Assembly: GCA_001803565.1 (NCBI GenBank)
Contig: MHDQ01000005.1
Span: forward strand, 1-12,506
DNA: 12,506 bases
Reading direction: 5' to 3'
Source of the DNA: Nitrospinae bacterium RIFCSPLOWO2_12_FULL_45_22
Lineage (GTDB): Bacteria; 2-12-FULL-45-22
The notes below the pieces were generated by a model, which saw only the letters and a list, made by a program, of their open reading frames with translations, did not search any database and was not told the origin of the DNA. Position numbers and translations under genes: made by a program. This document shows, one piece after another, positions 540-12,506 of the stretch (positions are counted from its first letter, which is position 1; every line of letters starts with the position of its first letter).

Positions 540-2402
540 TTAGAATTGATAAACAATCTCGAATTCAATGGAATCATTGTTGTCAAAGACCCCAAAAGAC
601 TTGTCTCCTTTTCCCTCCATATGGATCCACTCGATCCGGGGCCGCCAGTTGTCTCCAAAAGTCCTGAAGGTCACCCGGTGGCGCATGCCAAACCCACTAT
701 TGTTCTGATCAAAGATATATAATGCATCCAGATTGATAAGGTCTTTATATACCTCGGTATTCCAGGCGAAGGTAAACCAGAACTCGTTGTCAGGCCGTCT
801 CCAATCAATATATGGAGATTGCCATAGGACACGTCGTTCCCCCGCCTCATTATTTATAACCTTAAATAAAAAGACCTGGAAACTGGTAAAGATAGACCGG
901 GGACGGGTCAGGAGCCAGTTGCCATAGAAGGAGTCTGGTAACCAGAGGAAGTAGTCAATGCCGAACAGAGTGGACCAGAAATCCTTCTCCACCACCGAAA
1001 ACCGGTCTTCAGCAACTAGCCGGACAGTGTTAAAAGGCTTGTTAAACTCATAAGAAGTTTCCAGGCGGAAGACTGGGCTAACCTTTTTGGGTGGGAGCTT
1101 GATAAAGTGCATCTCCCGCGTAGCAGTAAAACCCACAAGTTTTTTATGTTCCCGAAAGTCCACATCCACATTGGCTACCACTGAAAGACCGCCAGGAATA
1201 CCTGAGCTGCCCAACGGGGGGAGGGGTAGTCCCAGGAATGGGGCAGCCGTGCCTGTAGCTAAATCAACCAAGCCGGCATTAACGAATCCAAAAGCCGCTT
1301 CACCTAATGATGGCGATACAGGCTGGTTAAAAGGAGGTGGGTTAATAGAGAGTGGTGCCCTGCCGTCAGGCCCCAGGTGCAGCTCAGCGTTTCTGACCCG
1401 GGTAATGGGCATATCCTGCCAGCCATAATAACCACTCAACGTGAAATCGGTGTCAAACATCCGCCAGGAGTAGCGGGTAGCAAAGGCCCCATTATTCCAA
1501 TTCCACCAGTCTGTGCTAGCGGGTGTAGTAATAAAGTGCGCAAACACCCGATCGGGAAGCGGTCCCCGGGGTGAGAAGTCGTGCCTGGGCAACGGGAATC
1601 CCCACCTCCCACCTGCCTCCTTGTCAAAAGGGTTATTGATAATGAGCTCACTGTGCCGCACATTGGGAATCCAAATAAACTCCAGACTCTGGGCCCTGAT
1701 GCCCAGGCGATCAAGGGGGATATAATCATCTAAAAAGAAAGTCAGGTCTGCCATCCATTGGTCAATTCGCAACTCCTCATAGTCCCGAAAGAGGAAGCGC
1801 TTGCGAAAATCAAGGGGATTGATCACATCCATTAGGCGCAGACCATCCGCCTGCCCCCATCCCCGCTGAAACTTTCCCAGGGTAAGGGCAAACCCTTTCT
1901 CCCGGTTGGTGAAGGTAACCGAGGCCTCGCGAATCAGGTAATCCCGAAGGAAGTTATTACAGTCTCCATTCCTACAGGTATCTGCGAACGACAGGGCATC
2001 ATCAGCATCTCCATCCCCCGTAGCCCCGGTGTAGGAATGGACTTTCCCCTGGTATTTATAGCCAAAGTTACGGCTGTCATCCCGAAAAGAATGGATAAGA
2101 TCGCCCCAGAGATTTAGATCAAGCTTTACCCACATCCAGTCCTGGTAGCTGTAATTGGTGACAAAATCTAGCAGGTACTCATCTGTCTGATTCTGGAATA
2201 TGGGTCCGGTTGATCCCCGCCCCACATTCTGGTATCCCCAGACGAAACCCTGTCGAATCTTACCGTCCATCCGCAGGTTATGGTCTCCAAAAACGTTCTC
2301 GTATAGGGTTGCCTGGGCTTGCCCGGCGCCACAGCACCACAGCAGCATTACTGTTATAACTCCCAAACAAATGCTGTACATCCCCTTATACCATAACTTC
2401 AT
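540..2402 (-). CDS. DUF1302-like outer-membrane beta-barrel protein
   Basis: This 620-residue protein starts at an ATG preceded by a purine-rich GGAGGGAGGG-like Shine-Dalgarno site. Residues 1 to about 31 form a signal peptide (MKLWYKGMYS, hydrophobic core, cleavage near AQA). The Cys-Cys pair in the core does not make a proper lipobox, so I call a secreted protein, not a lipoprotein. The mature chain has many alternating aromatic/polar stretches and ends in Tyr-Gln-Phe, the C-terminal Phe typical of BAM-assembled barrels. Residues 181-203 contain the GWGQADG...DVINPLDFRKR segment, which matches the DUF1302 style (WG.aDG followed by DviNP.d.r). C143 and C148 could form a disulfide in a periplasmic or surface loop. 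It follows the RND gene by 99 bp and precedes the DUF1329-like gene by 27 bp, the usual company of this family. The likely role is an outer-membrane channel or docking partner for a hydrophobic compound; the substrate is unknown. Confidence 0.8.
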   Translation of the reverse strand: MKLWYKGMYSICLGVITVMLLWCCGAGQAQATLYENVFGDHNLRMDGKIRQGFVWGYQNVGRGSTGPIFQNQTDEYLLDFVTNYSYQDWMWVKLDLNLWGDLIHSFRDDSRNFGYKYQGKVHSYTGATGDGDADDALSFADTCRNGDCNNFLRDYLIREASVTFTNREKGFALTLGKFQRGWGQADGLRLMDVINPLDFRKRFLFRDYEELRIDQWMADLTFFLDDYIPLDRLGIRAQSLEFIWIPNVRHSELIINNPFDKEAGGRWGFPLPRHDFSPRGPLPDRVFAHFITTPASTDWWNWNNGAFATRYSWRMFDTDFTLSGYYGWQDMPITRVRNAELHLGPDGRAPLSINPPPFNQPVSPSLGEAAFGFVNAGLVDLATGTAAPFLGLPLPPLGSSGIPGGLSVVANVDVDFREHKKLVGFTATREMHFIKLPPKKVSPVFRLETSYEFNKPFNTVRLVAEDRFSVVEKDFWSTLFGIDYFLWLPDSFYGNWLLTRPRSIFTSFQVFLFKVINNEAGERRVLWQSPYIDWRRPDNEFWFTFAWNTEVYKDLINLDALYIFDQNNSGFGMRHRVTFRTFGDNWRPRIEWIHMEGKGDKSFGVFDNNDSIEFEIVYQF

Positions 2403-2501: not shown

Positions 2502-4865
2502 TTACACTACCTCTTTTTCTTCGCCAGCGTGAATCTTGCCCAGAAGGGATTTGGGTTTAAACACCGTGACTGCCGCGGGGATAAAGACAATAGCCCCAAG
2601 CATGTTAAACAAAAGAACCACCGCTAAAAGGAATCCCATCTCTGCTTGAAACTTTAATCCCGAAAGGAAATACCATGGCATCAGGGGAATAATCATGGTA
2701 GAAGCGGTAAGGACAACAGCCGTACCAGCCGATTTCAACATTGTCGTTATAGCCAGGGGAAGACTTCCTAAACGATGGTACTCTTCCTTAATCCGATCCA
2801 TCACGTAGATCCCGTAATCCACCCCCCGGCCCATCCCCACGGCAGCTACCGGCAAAGTGCTCAGGTTCATACCGATCCCCATAAGGTACATGTAGGTTTG
2901 GGCAATCAACTGAGCCCCCAGGAGGACAATAGCAAGCATAAGGCAGGCAGCTACTGAACGGTAGCTAATATAAACGGTGATAAGGATCACCGCCAGGATA
3001 GCTGCAATAGTCAGGAATTGCGCTTTCTCAATAACCAGGTCAGTAGCCAGGGTAAGGCCCCCCAGGCCCCCGGGGAAGAGGTATAGGATAGTGTCTTTAG
3101 GCTCGCTCCGTTTGCGGGCAAAGAAGTTCTCGATATCGGCAGTGATCTTTCTAAGGGTAGCACTTTTGTGATCACTGAGAAAATAGACGATGTTCCCCTT
3201 AAGCCAGCTCCCGTCTGTAAATACATCAAAGTCTCCCGGATCAGAACGTGACCGAAAGAAGTATAGGTCCATAGCAATGGTCTCGTGCGAGGCCGGGATA
3301 AACTCATAGGAGGGGTCCCCCTCTAATACTACTGAATGGACTTTCTTTACCAGCGGGACCAAAGACTGTACCCCACTCACCTCCTCATGTCTCTGGTACA
3401 AAATACGCGACAGGTCCTCAATGGCCTGGTATACCCGCGACTCTGCCATGGTCCCTTCTGGGCCATCCACAAAGAGCTGGATGGTATCGGTCCCCAAACG
3501 GCCAAATCGCTGATTGATCTCCGTGTTATCCTGGTTATAACGGGCATCAGACCAGAGGATCGGGCTTCCAGGATAGGGATCGCCAATAATAACTTTAGAA
3601 GCGAAAATCGCTCCCACTACAAAGACCACTACCACAACCGCAATAATCGGCTTGCCCCACCGTTGGTAGTCCAAATCGGCCAGCAGGCTGAGTTTGTGGA
3701 GCCACTTCTGTCCCCTTGCCTCCAGCTTCTCGGGTATTGGCACGTAAAAGAAAGTGGCGGCACTAAAGGTCACTGCCAGCGTGATGCTCAAGAGCCAGGC
3801 AGTACAGAGGATAGAGAGGATACGGAGGGTAGGTATCTCTGCCAGGTAAAGCACGGTAAAGCCCATGGCATCAGTAAAGATGGCTGAGAAGCTCGGCTTC
3901 AGCAGCGCCACAATGGTCTCTTCTAAAGCCAGTTTGAAATCTTTAAGGCGGGCGTATTCTTCATAGAAACGATTGGTGATCTGGATGGAGTGGCTCAGGA
4001 TGGTGGCAAAGACAAAGAAGGGCAGGATAAGCATCAAGGGGTTGACATTGTAGCCGGTTATGCTGATGAAACCAAATCCCCAGATGGTGGTCATCACTGC
4101 CTTGATAATGGGGATCATTACCCCCAGGAACGAGGCATAATAAACGTAAACTACCCCCAGAATGATCACAAAGGTCAAAATAAAGATGCCGATCATCTGA
4201 GGTACATAGGCATAGATGGTACCAAGAAGGAGGGGGCGTCCCACACCATGGACTGTTACTGGGCCGTTGGCCTCCTCACGCGCCCGTAGCTCCTCAAAGA
4301 AGTTATAAAACTTCTCAAAGTCCATATCGGGTTTGAAGTCCAGGATGACCATAGCAGCCGTGTCATCCTCCGAGACGAGTTGACCCCCGTAGAGTTCCTT
4401 GGCGTTTATTTTTAGTTGCCTAAGCCCTTCGGCATCCTGGGGTATATCAGGCCACATCAGGCCCTCGATACGAATTGTCCCGGCCTCTCCGGTGATAGCC
4501 TTAATCTTTTTGCTGGCAATAGATTGGACAGAGAAGCGGCTGGTATCGGGATAATAGTAGAGCTCCTCTGCGATTTTACGGAAACGCTGGAGGAATTCCG
4601 GATTGTAGATGTCTCCCTGGGTAGTTTTCACCTCCACCAAGGTGGTATTAGCCCCACCAAAGATCGGGGCATAGGTATTATATCTTTCGACATAGGGATG
4701 CCCTTGCGGAATCATCTCTTCCAGGATGATCTTTAGCTTGAGCCCGGTCACCAAGAAATAACCAAACACACCGGTAAAGATGATCATTACCACGAGCACA
4801 ATCCCTGTGTGCTCCACAAGCAATCGGGCCAATCGTCTCTTCCAATCCATGGTAGTTTTACCCAC
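2502..4865 (-). CDS. RND/MMPL-family inner-membrane transporter
   Basis: From a GTG start at 4865 this is 787 residues. The topology is a duplicated RND half: TM1 near residues 20-43, a periplasmic domain to about 220, a TM cluster from about 223 to 378, TM7 near 406-424, a second periplasmic domain, and a last TM cluster from about 615 to 769. The second half has GRGVDYGIYVMDR with an Asp-Tyr pair at about 683-684, as in the proton-relay GxDYxxF motif of MmpL transporters. The matching place in the first half reads SHSIQITNRF, with no Asp-Tyr pair. At roughly 790 residues it fits the compact MMPL/'predicted exporter' group rather than the ~1000-residue AcrB group. The GTG is chosen because GGAGG (4874-4878) lies 8 nt upstream and the frame then begins 1 nt after the preceding stop. 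It presumably uses proton motive force to move a hydrophobic molecule with the YCF48-, DUF1302- and DUF1329-like partners. Import or export cannot be decided from sequence. Confidence 0.88.
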   Translation of the reverse strand: MGKTTMDWKRRLARLLVEHTGIVLVVMIIFTGVFGYFLVTGLKLKIILEEMIPQGHPYVERYNTYAPIFGGANTTLVEVKTTQGDIYNPEFLQRFRKIAEELYYYPDTSRFSVQSIASKKIKAITGEAGTIRIEGLMWPDIPQDAEGLRQLKINAKELYGGQLVSEDDTAAMVILDFKPDMDFEKFYNFFEELRAREEANGPVTVHGVGRPLLLGTIYAYVPQMIGIFILTFVIILGVVYVYYASFLGVMIPIIKAVMTTIWGFGFISITGYNVNPLMLILPFFVFATILSHSIQITNRFYEEYARLKDFKLALEETIVALLKPSFSAIFTDAMGFTVLYLAEIPTLRILSILCTAWLLSITLAVTFSAATFFYVPIPEKLEARGQKWLHKLSLLADLDYQRWGKPIIAVVVVVFVVGAIFASKVIIGDPYPGSPILWSDARYNQDNTEINQRFGRLGTDTIQLFVDGPEGTMAESRVYQAIEDLSRILYQRHEEVSGVQSLVPLVKKVHSVVLEGDPSYEFIPASHETIAMDLYFFRSRSDPGDFDVFTDGSWLKGNIVYFLSDHKSATLRKITADIENFFARKRSEPKDTILYLFPGGLGGLTLATDLVIEKAQFLTIAAILAVILITVYISYRSVAACLMLAIVLLGAQLIAQTYMYLMGIGMNLSTLPVAAVGMGRGVDYGIYVMDRIKEEYHRLGSLPLAITTMLKSAGTAVVLTASTMIIPLMPWYFLSGLKFQAEMGFLLAVVLLFNMLGAIVFIPAAVTVFKPKSLLGKIHAGEEKEVV

Positions 4866-4866
4866 T

Positions 4867-5988
4867 CTAAGCCCCTCCTTTCCCAGGATAGACATTCTTG
4901 CCCCAATTCAGCATCGTCCGGCAGCTTTCTTTGCCGCTTGAGCAATGCAGGACAATTCCTTTTTGGCCGACAACCCACACCCCGGCATCAGGATTAGCTT
5001 GAGACGAATAGAACCATGTTTCTAAAAGATTAACACCTGGGGGAAGTATAATCTCGTGCCAGTGCAGATTATCGCCGTTGCGTCCTTCAAACCAATGGAG
5101 AAAGCGGGTGCCCAGAACCAGTATTCGTCCCGATCCATTATCTATACAGAGGTCAAAAAAATTTTCTTTCCTGCCAGTTGAAATCGTCTCCCATCTCTCT
5201 CCCCCATCGCGGGTGCGCAGGATAGTACCGCTCAAACCAGCCACATAGCCTACCTGGGGGTTAAGAAAGGCGATGCTCATCAAGGTCACGCTCGTTCCAG
5301 TTTCTCTGGCTTGCCAGGATCGCCCTCCATCGCGGGTAACGAAGAGGGAGCCAAACTCTCCCACAATCCATCCTATCTGTTGAGTGAAAAACCGAACCCG
5401 ATTGAGGTGGGCTTCTTTTCCCTCCAAAACCTGTTCTCGCCAGTTTTTTCCTCCATCCCGGGTAACAAATATGGAGCCAGTTCGGGCAATAATCCACCCT
5501 CTGGAGGTATCAATAAAGTCCACATCCCGAAGGTAGATATCGGGATCAAGAGAACGAAGACGCATGGTATCAATCGTTTGCTTAACCCAGCTTTGTCCTC
5601 CATCCTCGGTATGGAGCACGGTTCCTCTCAGCCCGACCGCCCATCCCCGCTTTTCGTCAACAAAGTCTACACCGCGTAAAAGGGCTTTCGTACCAGTCTC
5701 CTGACGGGTCCAACTTTTTCCGCCATCATGGGTGGTAAGAATTGTCCCATAATCACCTACCACCCACCCCTTATCCTCAGTGACAAACTGGAGGTCATAA
5801 AGATGATCTGGTACCCAGCGGATGGTTCCTGTGCTGTGAACTGAAACTGATGAGTGTGCCGTAGAGAAGAGGCCCAGGTAGTATGCAGTAACAGCAACAA
5901 CACTACAGACGATGACCCCCAACAGAGTTCTCGTCACAGGCAATCGTTTATAACTATTGTTTGTCGGTATGCTTCGTGTCTCTCTCAT
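4867..5988 (-). CDS. Membrane-anchored YCF48/Hcf136-like beta-propeller protein
   Basis: This 373-residue protein has an N-terminal signal-anchor at about residues 20-41 (TRTLLGVIVCSVVAVTAYYL) followed by a propeller. Five clear blades carry a GW.VG..G.i core (GWVVGDYGTI, GWAVGLRGTV, GWIIARTGSI, GWIVGEFGSL, GYVAGLSGTI), each followed by an Asp-box-like segment (HDGGKSW, EDGGQSW, RDGGKNW, RDGGRSW, RDGGERW). A degenerate last repeat is WVVGQKGIVL. This is the YCF48/BNR-like family known as a photosystem II assembly factor in phototrophs and found beside RND exporters in non-phototrophs. I chose the ATG at 5988 because it directly precedes a classic anchor sequence and has GGGGAG 11 nt upstream. 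The open frame continues upstream only to a TTG at 6141. It is the first gene of the operon and its stop is 1 nt from the RND start. It probably acts in the periplasm as a scaffold or assembly factor for the transporter; that role is inferred. Confidence 0.8.
   Translation of the reverse strand: MRETRSIPTNNSYKRLPVTRTLLGVIVCSVVAVTAYYLGLFSTAHSSVSVHSTGTIRWVPDHLYDLQFVTEDKGWVVGDYGTILTTHDGGKSWTRQETGTKALLRGVDFVDEKRGWAVGLRGTVLHTEDGGQSWVKQTIDTMRLRSLDPDIYLRDVDFIDTSRGWIIARTGSIFVTRDGGKNWREQVLEGKEAHLNRVRFFTQQIGWIVGEFGSLFVTRDGGRSWQARETGTSVTLMSIAFLNPQVGYVAGLSGTILRTRDGGERWETISTGRKENFFDLCIDNGSGRILVLGTRFLHWFEGRNGDNLHWHEIILPPGVNLLETWFYSSQANPDAGVWVVGQKGIVLHCSSGKESCRTMLNWGKNVYPGKGGA
4874..4878 (-). promoter_or_regulatory. 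Shine-Dalgarno site that sets the GTG start of the RND gene
   Basis: GGAGG on the minus strand, inside the last codons of the YCF48-like gene and 8 nt before the GTG at 4865. The in-frame upstream ATG at 4895 has no such site and would overlap the previous gene by 29 bp. The layout indicates translational coupling. Confidence 0.7.
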
Positions 5989-6228
5989 AAGATAAATTTC
6001 TCCCCAGATGAGATAAAAGTTGTTAATCAGTATCTTATTAAACAAAACGAGAGAGGGGACCAAGGTAAGTAGGTTAAAAAAGGGCATCTTAAAGAGAACA
6101 GTACGTTGAGGAGTAACAGCACCGGTCGTTAGCTTCAGCAAACTATTATCCTGCAGAGCTTAAGCTAATGGTCACTAGCAAAGGAATATCTCACTCAGAG
6201 AGAAAAACCCCTCCCCTTTTGTCAGGTG
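5989..6228 (-). other. Long 5' leader of the envelope operon
   Basis: No separate gene is supported between the predicted transcription start (near 6228) and the ATG at 5988. The leader is about 240 nt, long for a simple operon, and contains the hairpin at 6129-6168. Part of it is open in the YCF48 frame (from a TTG at 6141), but that start has no Shine-Dalgarno site. I do not recognise a known riboswitch class in it. Confidence 0.4.
6129..6168 (-). other. Inverted repeat / possible RNA hairpin in the operon leader
   Basis: The arms 6129-6139 and 6158-6168 are complementary at 10 of 11 positions, around an 18-nt loop. On the minus strand they read TTAGCTTAAGC and GCTGAAGCTAA. No T-run follows, so it is not a standard intrinsic terminator. 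It lies about 140 nt upstream of the chosen YCF48 start. Confidence 0.4.
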
Positions 6229-7294: not shown

Positions 7295-7570
7295 CTAGGT
7301 ATCATAGACCTTTTCTTTAAGCAACAACCCTTCCCTCTCATCAATAATCTTTATGCGCCAGGGCTCGGGCCGCAAGCTACCCCGTTGATATCTAAGCCAG
7401 AGGATATCTCCTTCAGGCAACTTATTCGCCGAGCTGGCCAGTATGGCCTTTACTACCCTGGTATCATATTTCCGATTACCGGGAGCGAGGTCCCGGATAG
7501 CCAGTATTAACTCCTTTCCTTCTGGCAGAGTAGATAGATCATCTACAAAGGTATCGTATTCTTTTGGCAT
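7295..7570 (-). CDS. Small UbiD-associated protein, phenylphosphate carboxylase gamma-subunit-like (copy 1)
   Basis: This 91-residue protein has a GGGGGAGAG purine run just before its ATG. Its N-terminus (KEYDTFVDDLSTLPEGKEL) followed by an AIRDL.PG..KY segment, an LPEGDILWLRY stretch and EPWRIKIIDE looks like the roughly 10-kDa gamma subunit (PpcC type) of anaerobic phenylphosphate carboxylase. That assignment is from recognition, not a database search. No signal peptide, membrane segment or cysteine is present, so it is a soluble cytoplasmic protein. It ends 11 nt before the GTG of the Mrp ATPase and follows UbiD-1 by 109 bp, a spacer filled by a palindromic repeat. It is probably a structural or regulatory subunit of one of the neighbouring carboxylases. 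Confidence 0.75.
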   Translation of the reverse strand: MPKEYDTFVDDLSTLPEGKELILAIRDLAPGNRKYDTRVVKAILASSANKLPEGDILWLRYQRGSLRPEPWRIKIIDEREGLLLKEKVYDT

Positions 7571-7598
7571 CTCTCTCCCCCCTTATTTTTTAAGCACT

Positions 7599-7660
7599 CA
7601 GCTATCAGCATTCAGCTTTTAGTTAAAAAGTGCTAATGTCTTGCTGACCGCTGATAGCTG
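7599..7660. repeat. Palindromic repeat of the CAGCTATCAGC type between UbiD-1 and the small gene
   Basis: Arms 7599-7616 and 7643-7660 pair at 16 of 18 positions around a 26-nt loop. The wider similarity extends to about 7592-7674 (AAGCACTCAGC against its near complement at the other end). Such TCAGCTATCAGC elements resemble dispersed intergenic palindromes seen in many bacterial genomes. No T-run follows on the minus strand, so it is not a standard terminator, although the RNA hairpin could still stabilise the 3' end of the UbiD-1 message. Confidence 0.7.
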
Positions 7661-7679
7661 ACGGCTGAACACTTACAGT

Positions 7680-9110
7680 TTATTTATAGCCGTAGTTTTT
7701 CCAGTTATTCAATACTTTTTCCTGGATTTCTTTAGGATAGATTTCTTTGAAAGAGGCCTTCCTGGGTATAGCAATCTCTTTAGGCCAGTCTAAAGGCCAG
7801 GTACAATCCAGCAGCACTGCGGCCCCTTTTCCCCACATCCTCTCTTCCAGGCTCAAGAATGGTAGCAGAGGATGGCCCACAGCAAATTCTTGTGCCCGGA
7901 TTCCTCTGACCGGGTGGCATTTGGTCACAATAGCATGTAATACCTCGGTAATATTATATGGGTCTACATCGGAATCTACTACTACTATGTAGGGATAAGG
8001 GAGTTTAGTGCCCCAGATGGCATTAGCTATATGGGAGGCAATATTGGTATATTTGGCTTGTACTGCCACCACAATCATATGACCAGAGCATTCGGGTGGT
8101 AGATGGATACCGGTAATAGGGAACCCATAATTATCTAAGATGGTCTTAATATCTGTCCGACCACAAACCGATAGGCAGATATCTGCATCATCCAGTGGTA
8201 CTCCCATATTGGCTACAGTAAGGATAGGGTCGTTCCTGAAGGTTATGGCCTTGACCCGATACACTGGCCGGGGCATCCGAGGGGAAGAGCGATAGCCGGT
8301 ATATTCTCCAAAAGGACCTTCATCTACCCGCTTATAAGGTAAGACTTCGCCTTCAATAATTATCTCCGCATGGGCCGGGACCAGGATATCGCTGGTTTCA
8401 CACTTGATCAATTCTACTGGAGCCCGTCTTATGCCACCAGCCAGGTCCGCCTCATTTCTGCCTACCCCATAAGAGGCGCAACTAGCCAGGGCCGAGATAG
8501 GGTCTGGCCCAATAGCCGTAGCAAAGGGCATAGGTATATTGTTGGCTTCATATTTGCGATAATACATAACGCCAATGTCCTGGGTAGGCAAAAATAATCC
8601 GCCCATATCCCGGCTGTTATGGATCATCTGGCGGTACATCCCCCAATTTACCCAGTCACTATCCATATCCTTGGTGAGAACGAAATGCCAGGTACTTATA
8701 TAGCGGCCACCATCACCATCATGCACCATGGGGGCGGGCAGCTCATAAAGGTCTACCTGATCCCCTATCCGGACATTCTCTTTACAAGGGCCATCTTTGA
8801 CTATTACCGGTTTTATGGGGTGCTGGGCCCGCTTGTGGTATTCATCCAGGATCGCGCCCGGATGGGAATCCGCCGGCATATCCATAGCAATAGCTAAGCG
8901 GCGAAAGTTAGCCAGCGGGCCACCAAACATCCGGAACCCCTTGGGATAGCCCTTGATCTTCTGGAAGAAAGGGGCTGGGAGCTTTAGTTCGTAAGACCGC
9001 CTGATTATTGCCCCGGCCTCTAAATCCCAATCCACTTCCTGCGCTACTCGTACCACTTCGCCGGCTTTTTCTAGTGCCTCTATATATTCCCGATTATCTC
9101 TAAATGGCAT
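7680..9110 (-). CDS. UbiD-family prenylated-FMN (de)carboxylase, UbiD-1
   Basis: At 476 residues this has normal UbiD length. The ATG has GGAGG 8 nt upstream. Using Aspergillus Fdc1 numbering recalled from the literature, the family motifs are present: N155 and R160 in NWGMYR (Fdc1 N168 and R173), E220 in NEADLAGG (E233, metal ligand), and E264 and E269 in EGPFGEY (E277 and E282, catalytic). Spacing agrees exactly: R160 to E220 is 60 residues and E220 to E264 is 44, as in Fdc1. The third metal ligand, His191, is not kept; D178 (or Q177) of the segment PTQDIG stands there. Known members reversibly (de)carboxylate unsaturated or aromatic acids using prFMN made by UbiX; no ubiX is in the window. 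Association with small gamma-like genes favours the anaerobic aryl carboxylase branch (phenylphosphate, naphthalene or benzene type) over ubiquinone synthesis. It differs clearly from UbiD-2 and UbiD-3 and may be a different subunit. Substrate unknown. Confidence 0.87.
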   Translation of the reverse strand: MPFRDNREYIEALEKAGEVVRVAQEVDWDLEAGAIIRRSYELKLPAPFFQKIKGYPKGFRMFGGPLANFRRLAIAMDMPADSHPGAILDEYHKRAQHPIKPVIVKDGPCKENVRIGDQVDLYELPAPMVHDGDGGRYISTWHFVLTKDMDSDWVNWGMYRQMIHNSRDMGGLFLPTQDIGVMYYRKYEANNIPMPFATAIGPDPISALASCASYGVGRNEADLAGGIRRAPVELIKCETSDILVPAHAEIIIEGEVLPYKRVDEGPFGEYTGYRSSPRMPRPVYRVKAITFRNDPILTVANMGVPLDDADICLSVCGRTDIKTILDNYGFPITGIHLPPECSGHMIVVAVQAKYTNIASHIANAIWGTKLPYPYIVVVDSDVDPYNITEVLHAIVTKCHPVRGIRAQEFAVGHPLLPFLSLEERMWGKGAAVLLDCTWPLDWPKEIAIPRKASFKEIYPKEIQEKVLNNWKNYGYK

Positions 9111-9134
9111 CTTACATCCCTCCTCTCTTTAGGG

Positions 9135-9428
9135 TTACCTGATCATCTCTTCCCGGGTAGGAGCTTTCTTAGGATGGAAGGCATCATCGGGAAGTTCTTC
9201 CAAGACCTGGATTCCCCAATACTGATCGGTGATATCATCTTTCAGGTTTCGAATCCAGAGTTTTGCTGCGCCCGGTAAGGCATTAAAATCCTCTTTGACC
9301 TTAGCCTTTACTACCTTTCTGGCCAAATCTGATAAGTCTCTTACCTCCAGTAATATATCTTTATCCTGTCTTATCTCTTCCAAAAGGTCTTCTAGATATA
9401 ACCAGTACACTTCATAACCCTCTCTCAT
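9135..9428 (-). CDS. Small UbiD-associated protein (copy 2)
   Basis: This 97-residue soluble protein has no signal peptide and no cysteine. It reads YEVYWLYLEDL at the start, then a LLEVRDLSDLARKVVKAKV segment, AAKLWIRNL and QYWGIQVLEELPDD. The order of elements (Y.v at the N-terminus, v/iRDL, rk.VkA, LW.R, W.I.vieE) parallels the 91-residue small protein at 7295-7570, so I treat both as one gamma-like family, although this copy is more divergent and has an acidic insertion near the N-terminus. Its stop is 24 bp before the UbiD-1 start, while the UbiD-2 stop lies 105 bp upstream behind a repeat, so it appears to be paired with UbiD-1. The Shine-Dalgarno site is weak (AAGGGG about 7 nt upstream). 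Confidence 0.68.
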   Translation of the reverse strand: MREGYEVYWLYLEDLLEEIRQDKDILLEVRDLSDLARKVVKAKVKEDFNALPGAAKLWIRNLKDDITDQYWGIQVLEELPDDAFHPKKAPTREEMIR

Positions 9429-9444
9429 CTTTTGACCCCTTATT

Positions 9445-9511
9445 CGTTAGGCGTTAGGCGTTAGGTGTAAGTGGTAAGGCTAACCCCTAACGACTCACCA
9501 CTTACGCCTAA
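9445..9511. repeat. CGTTAGG triplet and hairpin between UbiD-2 and the second small gene
   Basis: Three perfect head-to-tail copies of CGTTAGG occupy 9445-9465. Arms 9461-9475 (TTAGGTGTAAGTGGT) and 9497-9511 (ACCACTTACGCCTAA) pair at 14 of 15 positions around a 21-nt loop that itself contains CCTAACG, the complement of the triplet unit. Just beyond, 9514-9523 reads AGCTATCAGC, the same ten bases as 7600-7609 in the other repeat, possibly a relic of that family. Confidence 0.7.
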
Positions 9512-9533
9512 TGAGCTATCAGCTTCTGCTCTC

Positions 9534-11030
9534 TTAATCAACCATGGACTTGAACACGGGCCTCATGACATATTCTCCCCTCTTTTCCTGGGTTATAGAA
9601 ACCGGTTTTTCAAATCCAAGCCCCTGCCAGTTCCGCTCTACCCAGTCTTGTACCTCCCTGGGGAATGCCCGCTCAAAGTCTACCCTCTTATTCGGGAGCT
9701 TGCTGGTACAATCGAAATAGACGGTCTTCTTGAGAGCCTCTTTCTTTTCTGCAATACTCAAAAAAGGCTCGTACTTAATGGCATGGGCAGCGGGAGCATT
9801 TATCTTCCTGATATCTCTACCAGGATGAACGTTTAATGAGAATTCCTCCATACCATCTTCGGTATTAGAAGGATTAACCGTGGCATCAACAATAAATGAC
9901 CTGAACAAGCCAGGTATGGAACCCTGAAAAGCCAGGGCTGCCCTACCTACCACATCAGGGCTATTTTTTAGGATAGATATCCAGAGATTAGCCCAGGTAG
10001 AAGACCCAAGGGGGCTTCCCCAGGCCGTTACTACGGGCAGATCATGATAAACTCTGAGTCGTCTCCACATCTCTACCCCGAAGGCAAAACCTAATGCCTT
10101 GCTGGAATTGGCAAACATACCCTCGACACAGAAGGGTATGATAGGGTCTTTCCGGTGGGTAATGGCTGTTACACGAACCACAGGTCGGGGCATCCGGGGT
10201 CCCTGGATAAAACCTGGATACTCACCAAAAGGCCCCTCATCCCAAAGCTCACCGGGACGTATAACACCCTCAATCACTATATCGGCATCGGCCGGTACAT
10301 ATAGATTATTGGTCTCACACTTAACCAATTCCAGGGGCTCCTGCCGCAGTCCACCGATCAACTCTGCCTCCCAAATACCCCACGGGGCCCGAAATGCCGC
10401 ACCTACAAAGGTCAATACATCGGCCCCTACATAATAGGCTACCGGCATCGGCTCGCCCCGGGCATGCCATTTCTTCATAATAATATCCCCTTGCTGGCCA
10501 TAGGTAGGGTCATAACCGATGCCATTACGGGTATGGATCATACCGCGGTAGTTGGCCCAGTTATTCCAGCGCTCCTCTGGGTCCTCCATGCACCAGCAGC
10601 CGGTGGTAGTATACCGACCCCCATCGCCATGATGCAGATAAGGCCAGGGAAACTTCAGGAGATTCGCCTCCTTACCCATCTGGATATGTTCTTTGCAGAG
10701 ACCGTTAGAGACTATGGTAGGAGGAATACCGGTATATAGTCGCCTCAAGAGTTCTGCCCCCAGGTCAAAAGGGTTGGCCTCAGGTGGTGCGCCAGCGGCT
10801 ATCGCCAGCCGGCGCCATATCTGATGCACAGGCCCAGCCCAGGGCTCTCCTAATAAGGTGTAACCTTCTGGATAACCCTTTATCTTCTTGAACCAGAGGA
10901 TCGGACCGCCTACCCGGCAAGACATGGTAGAGAAGGCCGCTGCCTCCAGATTCCAATCCACCTCCTCTTCTATCTCTACCAACTCACCCATTTCTCTCAG
11001 ACGCTTTATAAATTCTCTTACTGATGGCAT
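9534..11030 (-). CDS. UbiD-family prenylated-FMN (de)carboxylase, UbiD-2
   Basis: This 498-residue protein starts at an ATG with GGAGG 5 nt upstream. UbiD motifs: N157 and R162 in NNWANYRG (Fdc1 N168, R173), E221 in WEAELIGG (E233), E265 and E270 in EGPFGEYPGF (E277, E282). The region of metal ligand His191 reads GQQGDIIMKK (178-187) and contains no histidine. After residue 300 the usual substrate-side segment is replaced by CVEGMFANSSKALG, unlike UbiD-1 (GVPLDDADIC), so the active-site pocket should differ. It is a close paralogue of UbiD-3: over residues 186-301 only 3 of 116 residues differ, but the part after 301 diverges much more. The 20-bp spacing from the third small gene upstream suggests that pair is one unit. 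It is probably cytoplasmic and prFMN-dependent, acting on an aromatic acid or arene; it may be a non-identical subunit partner of UbiD-1. Confidence 0.86.
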   Translation of the reverse strand: MPSVREFIKRLREMGELVEIEEEVDWNLEAAAFSTMSCRVGGPILWFKKIKGYPEGYTLLGEPWAGPVHQIWRRLAIAAGAPPEANPFDLGAELLRRLYTGIPPTIVSNGLCKEHIQMGKEANLLKFPWPYLHHGDGGRYTTTGCWCMEDPEERWNNWANYRGMIHTRNGIGYDPTYGQQGDIIMKKWHARGEPMPVAYYVGADVLTFVGAAFRAPWGIWEAELIGGLRQEPLELVKCETNNLYVPADADIVIEGVIRPGELWDEGPFGEYPGFIQGPRMPRPVVRVTAITHRKDPIIPFCVEGMFANSSKALGFAFGVEMWRRLRVYHDLPVVTAWGSPLGSSTWANLWISILKNSPDVVGRAALAFQGSIPGLFRSFIVDATVNPSNTEDGMEEFSLNVHPGRDIRKINAPAAHAIKYEPFLSIAEKKEALKKTVYFDCTSKLPNKRVDFERAFPREVQDWVERNWQGLGFEKPVSITQEKRGEYVMRPVFKSMVD

Positions 11031-11050
11031 TCTCGCCTCCTTCCCCTTAT

Positions 11051-11287
11051 TTAGGTAAGTTCTTCTATGGCTATAACCTTAACATAAACCTCCCCGGCTT
11101 CAAGACCAAAGCGGCCAAAGACCTTCAGCTTCTCTGCCTCGGGAAACTCCTTGCGGCAGATAAGGGTATTGGCATAGAGCCAGGTCTTATCCGTATCGTC
11201 TAATAGCTTAACCCTCATTTCTCTGGGCGATGCTTCCAAAGCACCCCAGGTCTCTTCTAGTGATCTATAATCCACTTGATAAGCCAT
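11051..11287 (-). CDS. Small UbiD-associated protein (copy 3)
   Basis: This 78-residue protein starts at an ATG with GGAGG upstream (GGAGGAAAGAATT before the start). It begins AYQVDYRSLEE, has a MRVKLLDDTDKTW segment, one cysteine in LICRKEFPEAEK, and ends VYVKVIAIEELT. Size, position and the end pattern (v.Vi.iEE) fit the other two small genes, but sequence likeness is weak and I would not assign the gamma-subunit family from it alone. It sits 20 bp upstream of UbiD-2 and 246 bp downstream of UbiD-3. No signal peptide or membrane segment is seen, so a soluble carboxylase-associated subunit is the most likely role. Confidence 0.62.
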   Translation of the reverse strand: MAYQVDYRSLEETWGALEASPREMRVKLLDDTDKTWLYANTLICRKEFPEAEKLKVFGRFGLEAGEVYVKVIAIEELT

Positions 11288-11351
11288 AATTCTTTCCTCC
11301 CCCTATAATTAATACCATAGGAATTTCCCCTTCAGACACGGATGAAGACAC

Positions 11352-11470
11352 AAAATCCTAAATCCTAATATCTAAATCCTAAAACAAATTCAAAATTAAA
11401 ATGACCTAATTTCAAAATAGTTTTGAGCATTTGGGCTTTGGATTTTGATATTGTTTAGAATTTAGGATTT
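11352..11470. repeat. AT-rich imperfect inverted repeat (MITE-like) between UbiD-3 and the third small gene
   Basis: The left end repeats AAATCCTAA-type units (AAATCCTAAATCC, then CTAAATCCTAAAAC). The right end, TTTAGAATTTAGGATTT, is its near complement. The centre holds a short palindrome, TCAAAATAGTTTTGA, at 11412-11426. It is far more AT-rich than the flanking genes and has no coding frame, so it looks like an inserted non-autonomous element or dispersed palindrome. Target-site duplications were not identified. The rest of 11288-11533 shows no gene and no convincing promoter. Confidence 0.65.
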
Positions 11471-11533
11471 CAAATTTAGAGTCTGTCTTAATTACTATCT
11501 GTGTGTATTTCGAAAATCTATATCCTAACTAAT

Positions 11534-12506
11534 TTAATCTACCATAGATTTAAACATTGGCCTCATAATATATTCTCCCCTCTTCCCTTTAAAAATAGAG
11601 GCCGGTTTTTCAAACCCCAACCTTTGCCAGTTCTGTGCTACCCAATCCTGTAACTCTCGGGGAAAGGCCCGCTCGAAGTCCACCCATTCATTATCCTGCT
11701 TAGCCGTACAATCGAAATAGACCCCTTTCTTAAGCCCCTCTTTTTTCTCTTCAATGCTCAAAAATGGCTCATACTTTATTCCAGTACATGCCGGGGCATT
11801 CACCTTCCTTATGTCCTTACTGGGATGGACATTTAGTGCGAAGGCTTCCATAGCGTCTTCGTTATTAGAGGGGTCTACTGAGGCATCTATAATGAAAGAT
11901 TTAGTGGTTATTGGTAGAAATCCATGCTGTCCAAGGGCAGCCCTATTGACAACATCGGGGCTGGTCTTTTCTAGCGCTATCCAGAAGCTGGCATACCCAG
12001 AGGGCATAGGGGCGGGCCAGACGCCTATTACAGGTAAATCATAATATACCCTGAGACGACGCCATACTTCGGCTGCAAAGCCAATTCCCAATGCCTTACT
12101 GGATGTAGCATACATACCTTCTACACAATAAGGTATAATCGGGTCTTTTCTGTGAGTGATGGCTGTTACGCGAACCACAGGCCGGGGCATCCTGGGCCCC
12201 TGGATAAAACCCGGGTATTCACCAAAGGGCCCCTCATCCCAAAGCTCACCAGGTCGAATGACACCCTCAATCACAATATCGGCATCGGCCGGTACATAGA
12301 GATGATTGGTCTCACACTTGACCAGCTCCAGGGGCTCCTGCCGCAGTCCACCGATCAACTCCGCCTCCCAAATACCCCACGGGGCACGAAACGCCGCACC
12401 TACAAAGGTCAAAACATCTGAGCCTACATAATAGGCCACCGGCATCGGCTCACCCCGGGCATGCCACTTCTTCATAATAAGATCCCCTTGCTGGCCATAG
12501 GTAGGG
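11534..12506 (-). CDS. UbiD-family prenylated-FMN (de)carboxylase, UbiD-3, C-terminal part (cut by window edge)
   Basis: The frame is open to the right edge, giving about 324 codons that match UbiD-2 from its PTYGQQGD segment (residue 175) onward. The internal ATG at 12475 is not the start: it equals Met185 of UbiD-2 and the frame continues through PTYGQQGDLI before it. Visible motifs are WEAELIGG (metal-ligand Glu) and EGPFGEYPGF (both catalytic Glu). The His191 region is again GQQGD without histidine. In the 300 bp equivalent to 10141-10440 I count about 31 base differences from UbiD-2, mostly synonymous. The second half differs at many residues (for example WPAPMPSGYASF against WGSPLGSSTWANL) and is one codon shorter. 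The full length is probably near 497 residues. It is followed by the AT-rich repeat and the third small gene. The paralogue pair suggests isoenzymes or two related subunits. Confidence 0.86.
   Translation of the reverse strand, partial: PTYGQQGDLIMKKWHARGEPMPVAYYVGSDVLTFVGAAFRAPWGIWEAELIGGLRQEPLELVKCETNHLYVPADADIVIEGVIRPGELWDEGPFGEYPGFIQGPRMPRPVVRVTAITHRKDPIIPYCVEGMYATSSKALGIGFAAEVWRRLRVYYDLPVIGVWPAPMPSGYASFWIALEKTSPDVVNRAALGQHGFLPITTKSFIIDASVDPSNNEDAMEAFALNVHPSKDIRKVNAPACTGIKYEPFLSIEEKKEGLKKGVYFDCTAKQDNEWVDFERAFPRELQDWVAQNWQRLGFEKPASIFKGKRGEYIMRPMFKSMVD

Follow-up and report, generated by a model that had tools for sequence, protein, structure and literature searches.

We describe here a gene cluster lying partly on contig MHDQ01000005.1 of Nitrospinae bacterium RIFCSPLOWO2_12_FULL_45_22 (assembly GCA_001803565.1), which is likely to encode an oxygen-independent arene carboxylase complex, dependent on prenylated flavin mononucleotide (prFMN) and of the same kind as the naphthalene and phenanthrene carboxylases. 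The analyzed stretch, hereafter called the window, is the entire contig (C5; 12,506 nt), from an assembly of 3.67 Mb in 321 contigs that is 85% complete. Our reading is based on the match of a nine-gene inventory with that of the known polycyclic aromatic hydrocarbon (PAH) carboxylases, on the grouping of one UbiD with PpcA, on small proteins of the phenylphosphate carboxylase gamma family, on the intact catalytic Arg, Glu and Glu residues and on the presence of UbiX in the genome. The rarity of the UbiD-linked ATPases, a 2-naphthoyl-CoA-reductase-like gene on contig C69, a BzdN/BzdO-like gene pair on contig C231 and the MMPL and YCF48-like genes of the locus point in the same direction. By analogy with those systems, the substrate is most likely an unsubstituted (poly)cyclic arene.

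The initial annotation of the window had described three UbiD genes alternating with three small genes, and all six were recovered on the minus strand where it had placed them. The spacing is as tight as it had supposed, with 20 nt between the small protein 3 gene and UbiD-2 and 24 nt between the small protein 2 gene and UbiD-1. A search for more modules to the right, which it had also proposed, was rewarded: the final 88 bases of the window recur, without a mismatch, at the start of contig C231, whose sequence adds the rest of UbiD-3, followed by UbiD-4 and a second ParA/Nbp35-like ATPase (ATPase B). A check of contig ends among 127 contigs of the same genome (1.39 Mb) revealed no further pair with such an overlap. 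Since an 88-base identity is typical of adjacent pieces of a k-mer assembly graph, we treated the window and C231 as one locus. The joined cluster consists of nine genes over 9,435 bases, all on one strand, in the order ATPase B, UbiD-4, UbiD-3, small 3, UbiD-2, small 2, UbiD-1, small 1 and ATPase A, with the ATPases sitting at both ends. ATPase A and the continuation on C231 had gone unmentioned in the initial annotation. ATPase A begins 11 nt behind the small protein 1 gene, UbiD-3 is flanked by gaps of 246 and 340 nt, and the six genes of the initial annotation have Shine-Dalgarno-like sequences.

The three UbiDs of the window score far above the Pfam cut-off of 23.3 bits for PF01977 (UbiD; scores in table 1). 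Together with UbiD-4 they represent three types (UbiD-1, UbiD-2/3 and UbiD-4) with 32-36% protein identity between types; UbiD-2 is 83% identical to UbiD-3 and 34% to UbiD-1. UbiD-1 is 48% identical to the annotated PpcA of Azoarcus KH32C, and our tree unites it with PpcA and the UbiDs of contig C35 (support 97/91), apart from housekeeping UbiD. UbiD-2/3 and UbiD-4 were placed elsewhere, loosely with a haloarchaeal UbiD (84/73). The ordinary UbiDs of this genome (contigs C58 and C256) and the UbiD of KH32C are separate from all cluster UbiDs, and UbiD-1 failed the housekeeping UbiD equivalog tests (149 vs. 788 and 196 vs. 496 bits). UbiD-1 to UbiD-4 all retain the catalytic Arg and the two catalytic Glu residues.

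At the DNA level, UbiD-2 and UbiD-3 are 83-96% identical over roughly gene bases 300-900 and 59-74% identical past base 900, a pattern suggestive of an old duplication that gene conversion has homogenized in part. A scan of contigs from other genomes, made with poor query patterns, gave UbiD relatives mostly from Chloroflexota, Bacillota and actinobacteria, at 26-38% identity.

Small protein 1 passes PF09662 (Phenyl_P_gamma) with 49.3 bits against a Pfam gathering cut-off of 25 bits and is 35% identical to PpcG of Azoarcus KH32C. Small protein 2 has no Pfam match of its own; it was recovered at E = 2.2e-12 from a database of 7,150 open reading frames (ORFs) by a gamma profile whose training set comprised PpcG and five gamma-like proteins but not small protein 2 itself. 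A profile lacking PpcG retrieved PpcG at E = 2e-12. On the basis of the PF09662 match and the profile searches we assign small proteins 1 and 2 to the gamma family, which agrees with the earlier suggestion that at least one of the small proteins is gamma-like. The profile match, along with the recurrence of the UbiD-small-UbiD order in another contig and in other genomes (see below), also indicates that small proteins 1 and 2 are encoded by real genes rather than by chance ORFs. Small protein 3 was missed by the gamma profile in the same database, so the relation to carboxylase subunits stands for the first two small proteins and could not be extended to the third, whose candidate gene, for which no homolog emerged, is indicated by its position and ribosome-binding site. 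A viral sequence scan with small protein 2 and a comparison of small protein 1 with solved structures gave no match. The small-protein models were weak (predicted local distance difference test scores of 42 for small protein 3 and 62) and a fold search produced no significant match, so we assign no fold to these proteins. As regards a resemblance to LpdD/VdcD-type accessory proteins, these searches yielded a low-confidence all-beta model, without a significant fold match, and no solved structure matching small protein 1.

A PpcA-like UbiD-1 adjoining a gamma-family small protein is an arrangement shared with the PpcBDAG systems of Azoarcus KH32C and Thauera, and the locus could on these grounds be a variant of phenylphosphate (or phenylphosphoamidate) carboxylase acting in phenol or aniline degradation. 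We consider this highly unlikely, because the cluster misses the equivalog cut-offs of all subunits concerned: alpha (UbiD-1 with the PpcA model TIGR02723, 489.7 vs. 564.6 bits), beta (at best 195.3 vs. 468.95) and gamma (small protein 1 with TIGR02725, 52 vs. 135.55). No equivalog of the delta subunit PpcD, a HAD protein, was found in the 85% complete genome (best score 152.6 vs. 281.95 bits). Moreover, ppcBDAG of KH32C is adjoined by genes for phosphoenolpyruvate-utilizing enzymes (phenylphosphate-synthase type) and by ubiX, all absent from this locus, and its operon has no ParA-like ATPase, whereas here ATPases are present instead. Neither ubiX nor a CoA ligase was recognized in the window or in C231:1-6518; UbiX is encoded on contig C6. 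The proposal in the initial annotation of a multi-subunit aryl carboxylase that does not need a phenylphosphate intermediate is in line with the PpcA grouping, the gamma proteins, the missed Ppc cut-offs and the published naphthalene carboxylase inventory.

ATPase A, of the Mrp/NUBPL/Nbp35 family, has an N-terminal C-x3-C-x2-C-x5-C motif, a C-terminal C-x2-C and the Walker A sequence GKGGVGKS. The combination of the two cysteine motifs is the layout of Nbp35-type iron-sulfur (Fe-S) carriers, and their columns are invariant across all four UbiD-linked ATPases of this genome. Matches at E <= 1e-70 to a UbiD-linked ATPase were present in only 3 of 386 sampled bacterial genomes, two of them from the host phylum, which is represented in our comparison collection by the host and one other genome. 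These ATPases may serve in Fe-S or electron delivery, possibly in the maturation of prFMN without oxygen; how anaerobes oxidize prFMN is an open question (PMC10865409).

The naphthalene carboxylase of N47 is encoded by one cluster of nine genes in 8.9 kb, with four UbiD genes, and has been proposed to form a complex of ~750 kDa (PMC12016498). Its inventory has been given as UbiD-like proteins, two ParA-MinD-like proteins and three linkers (PMC10570749), and published subunits share up to 46% identity with PpcA (PMC12016498). In the present cluster we found four UbiDs, one of them PpcA-like, two ParA/MinD-like ATPases and, by count and position, three small genes. Nine genes in ~9 kb, four UbiDs, ParA/MinD-like ATPases, small linkers and the level of identity to PpcA are therefore shared with the clusters of N47 and NaphS2 (N47_K27540-27460; NPH_5855-5865), which differ in belonging to another phylum, whereas here transport genes directly follow the cluster. 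Several UbiD-like genes together with ParA/MinD, MRP and Fer4_NifH-like genes are also present in apaA-J, the phenanthrene carboxylase cluster of TRIP1 (PMC13101529), but there apaC encodes a CoA ligase and six genes are proposed to encode carboxylase subunits, and no ligase was recognized here.

Both genomes of the phylum contain a compact cluster of the form ATPase-UbiD-small-UbiD-ATPase, which lies on contig C35 of the host (L012; 254-5818) and on L047 of the second genome (5361-10891). One UbiD of the C35 pair has His in place of the catalytic Arg, a replacement shared by the corresponding UbiD of the second genome, suggesting that UbiD pairs of this type may combine one active and one structural subunit. 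The UbiD-small-UbiD order was also seen in a third, dsrA-bearing genome (L039; G032 contig C267, 1-3986), the sole representative of its phylum in the collection. At first look, genome G049 gave 64 UbiD-like candidates. These compact clusters bear on the alternative that the UbiD enzymes of the locus are separate, act on different substrates and just happen to be co-located. The distance between the three UbiD types, the catalytic triad present in all of them and the gaps on both sides of UbiD-3 would be in keeping with separate enzymes. Nevertheless, the genes form one co-directional run between paired ATPases, a small form of this layout recurs in the C35 and L047 clusters, and the published counterpart was proposed to be a single complex (PMC12016498), all of which makes co-location of independent enzymes quite unlikely.

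As to the substrate, contig C69 (L014; 7323-12880) carries a UbiD and a gamma-like small protein beside an old yellow enzyme (OYE)-type protein and two genes of the 2-hydroxyglutaryl-CoA dehydratase-D (HGD-D) type. The best solved match of the OYE-type protein is 2-naphthoyl-CoA reductase (381 bits vs. 323 for the next), although other OYE-family enzymes likewise score well. Reports of type III aryl-CoA reductases of this kind are confined to anaerobic PAH degradation (PMC12016498), and the C69 region is probably another module for aromatic acids or aryl-CoA compounds. UbiD reactions are reversible, the sequence does not reveal the substrate, and UbiD-2, UbiD-3 and UbiD-4 have no close characterized relative, so the complex might instead (de)carboxylate a non-hydrocarbon compound (heteroaromatic, hydroxyaromatic or a terpenoid acid) and have only its architecture in common with naphthalene carboxylase. 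Such a substrate is unlikely given that the inventory matches the PAH carboxylases, that 2-naphthoyl-CoA-reductase-like and BzdNO-like genes occur in the genome and that the adjoining transport genes are of a kind linked to hydrophobic compounds.

Several points weigh against a PAH carboxylase of the published kind. The likeness to N47, NaphS2, TRIP and AbcA stems from published inventories rather than from sequence comparison, and the published counts themselves differ, with three UbiD-like subunits in the naphthalene carboxylase complex according to one source (PMC10570749) and four according to another (PMC12016498). The position of the metal-ligand His of Fdc1-type enzymes is occupied by D, Q or G in the cluster UbiDs, and UbiD-4 additionally lacks the metal-ligand Asn, the alignment being uncertain at both places; with these metal-binding residues replaced, some of the UbiD subunits may be structural. 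Small protein 3 aligned with the gamma family with an hhalign P of 0.058, several shuffled sequences doing as well or better. The join of the window and C231, and hence the reconstruction of UbiD-3, derives from assembly ends rather than from a single read. Finally, dsrA gave no match at E <= 1e-100 in the 85% complete genome, which is therefore not established as that of a sulfate reducer, unlike the known PAH degraders.

If the cluster does encode a PAH carboxylase, UbiX would make prFMN, and a cycloadduct would arise between this cofactor and an unsubstituted aromatic hydrocarbon, most likely one of two or three rings; addition of CO2 would then yield the arene carboxylate. The small proteins may act as clamps or assembly factors for the UbiD subunits, the ATPases may supply Fe-S clusters or electrons, perhaps to mature prFMN without oxygen, and the products of the YCF48, MMPL and outer-membrane genes may move the hydrophobic substrate. 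The single complex, its unsubstituted arene substrate and the roles of the small proteins and ATPases are what we infer from gene content and published counterparts. In a more elaborate version, the paired Nbp35-like ATPases would mature or re-activate prFMN anoxically and the gamma proteins would join three kinds of UbiD into an asymmetric particle, with an importer encoded behind and a selenocysteine-containing class I aryl-CoA reductase beside it; this seems improbable as a whole.

Table 1. Genes of the joined cluster, its flanks and the selenocysteine-related loci (positions refer to the window unless a contig is named)
Feature	Position	Strand	Support or remark
ATPase A, ParA/Nbp35-like P-loop, 301 aa	6378..7283	-	PF10609 286 bits; GTG start
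Small protein 1, 91 aa, phenylphosphate carboxylase gamma family	7295..7570	-	PF09662 49.3 bits
UbiD-1, 476 aa, PpcA-like prFMN (de)carboxylase subunit	7680..9110	-	PF01977 215.6 bits
Small protein 2, 97 aa, divergent gamma-family member	9135..9428	-	gamma profile E = 2.2e-12
UbiD-2, 498 aa, second UbiD type	9534..11030	-	PF01977 205.5 bits
Small protein 3, 78 aa, candidate gene	11051..11287	-	ORF, position, Shine-Dalgarno GGGGAGG
UbiD-3, C-terminal 323 residues, cut by contig end	11534..12506	-	PF01977 140.8 bits
UbiD-3, N-terminal part	C231 (L013):1-609	-	joined frame open, 497 aa
UbiD-4, 504 aa	C231, between UbiD-3 and ATPase B
ATPase B, ParA-like	C231 (L013):2480-3394		PF10609 252 bits
BzdN-like gene	C231 (L013):3865-4989	+
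BzdO-like benzoyl-CoA reductase subunit gene	C231 (L013):5211-6518	+	in-frame TGA, codon 94
YCF48-like BNR-repeat protein, start codon tentative	4867..6141	-	PF14870 124.4 bits
MMPL/RND-family transporter	2502..4895	-	PF03176 77.5 bits
Probable outer-membrane beta-barrel protein	540..2402	-	signal-peptide-like start, C-terminal Phe
Putative exported protein, N-terminal 170 aa, cut by contig end	3..512	-	sequence inspection
Second HGD-D family gene	C53 (L144):6642-7889	+	TGA in motif GFGRDS-U-S
tRNA-Sec	C247 (L134):5686-5782	-

Behind ATPase A and on the same strand follow a YCF48-like gene, an MMPL transporter gene overlapping it by 29 nt, a gene whose product is probably located in the outer membrane and, cut by the contig end, a gene for a probable exported protein. 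The first two were confirmed by Pfam; the other two gave no Pfam match, that of the outer-membrane candidate even at E = 10. A highly expressed "Nanopod" cluster with YCF48, MMPL, a porin-like protein and DUF1329 has been described in the benzene degrader Ca. Anaerobenzenivorax (ORM2a; PMC13101534). The two loci share YCF48-related and MMPL genes, here beside a candidate outer-membrane protein, and the YCF48-like protein is a probable partner in a transport module. In ORM2a, the Nanopod cluster is located apart from the activation genes, and its "Magic" cluster for benzene activation (PMC13101534) was rejected as a relative of the present one, since it is not UbiD-based.

On the other side of the cluster, the BzdN-like and BzdO-like genes of C231 start ~470 bases beyond ATPase B, in divergent orientation. 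The in-frame TGA of the BzdO-like gene aligns with Cys95 of BzdO, which is among the three cysteines that ligate the active-site [4Fe-4S] cluster (PMC11971306). A 6-bp hairpin lies ~11 nt past this TGA and folds modestly better than shuffled sequences (z = -1.6); an Rfam search for selenocysteine insertion sequence (SECIS) elements gave no match. The HGD-D gene on C53, read through its TGA, scores 216 bits with HGD-D. Selenocysteine is predicted from the TGA at a cluster-ligand codon, the second TGA-containing gene and the tRNA-Sec gene, and the BzdO-like gene probably encodes it at an active-site cluster ligand position.

The architecture described here has already been published; what the present locus would add, judging from its sequence, is its occurrence in a sparsely sampled phylum and with a transport module attached. 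At the level of individual subunits, biochemical proof is still awaited for the way in which anaerobes activate non-substituted aromatic hydrocarbons. Finding the same inventory in a second, distant lineage points to its constant parts, which comprise a PpcA-like UbiD and UbiDs of other types together with small proteins and a pair of Nbp35-like ATPases. If the published linker proteins are the same as the small proteins found here, they too would be members of the phenylphosphate carboxylase gamma family, and the conserved ATPases raise a testable question on the maturation of prFMN under anoxic conditions. The potential for arene carboxylation would thereby be extended to a phylum with two genomes in the collection compared.

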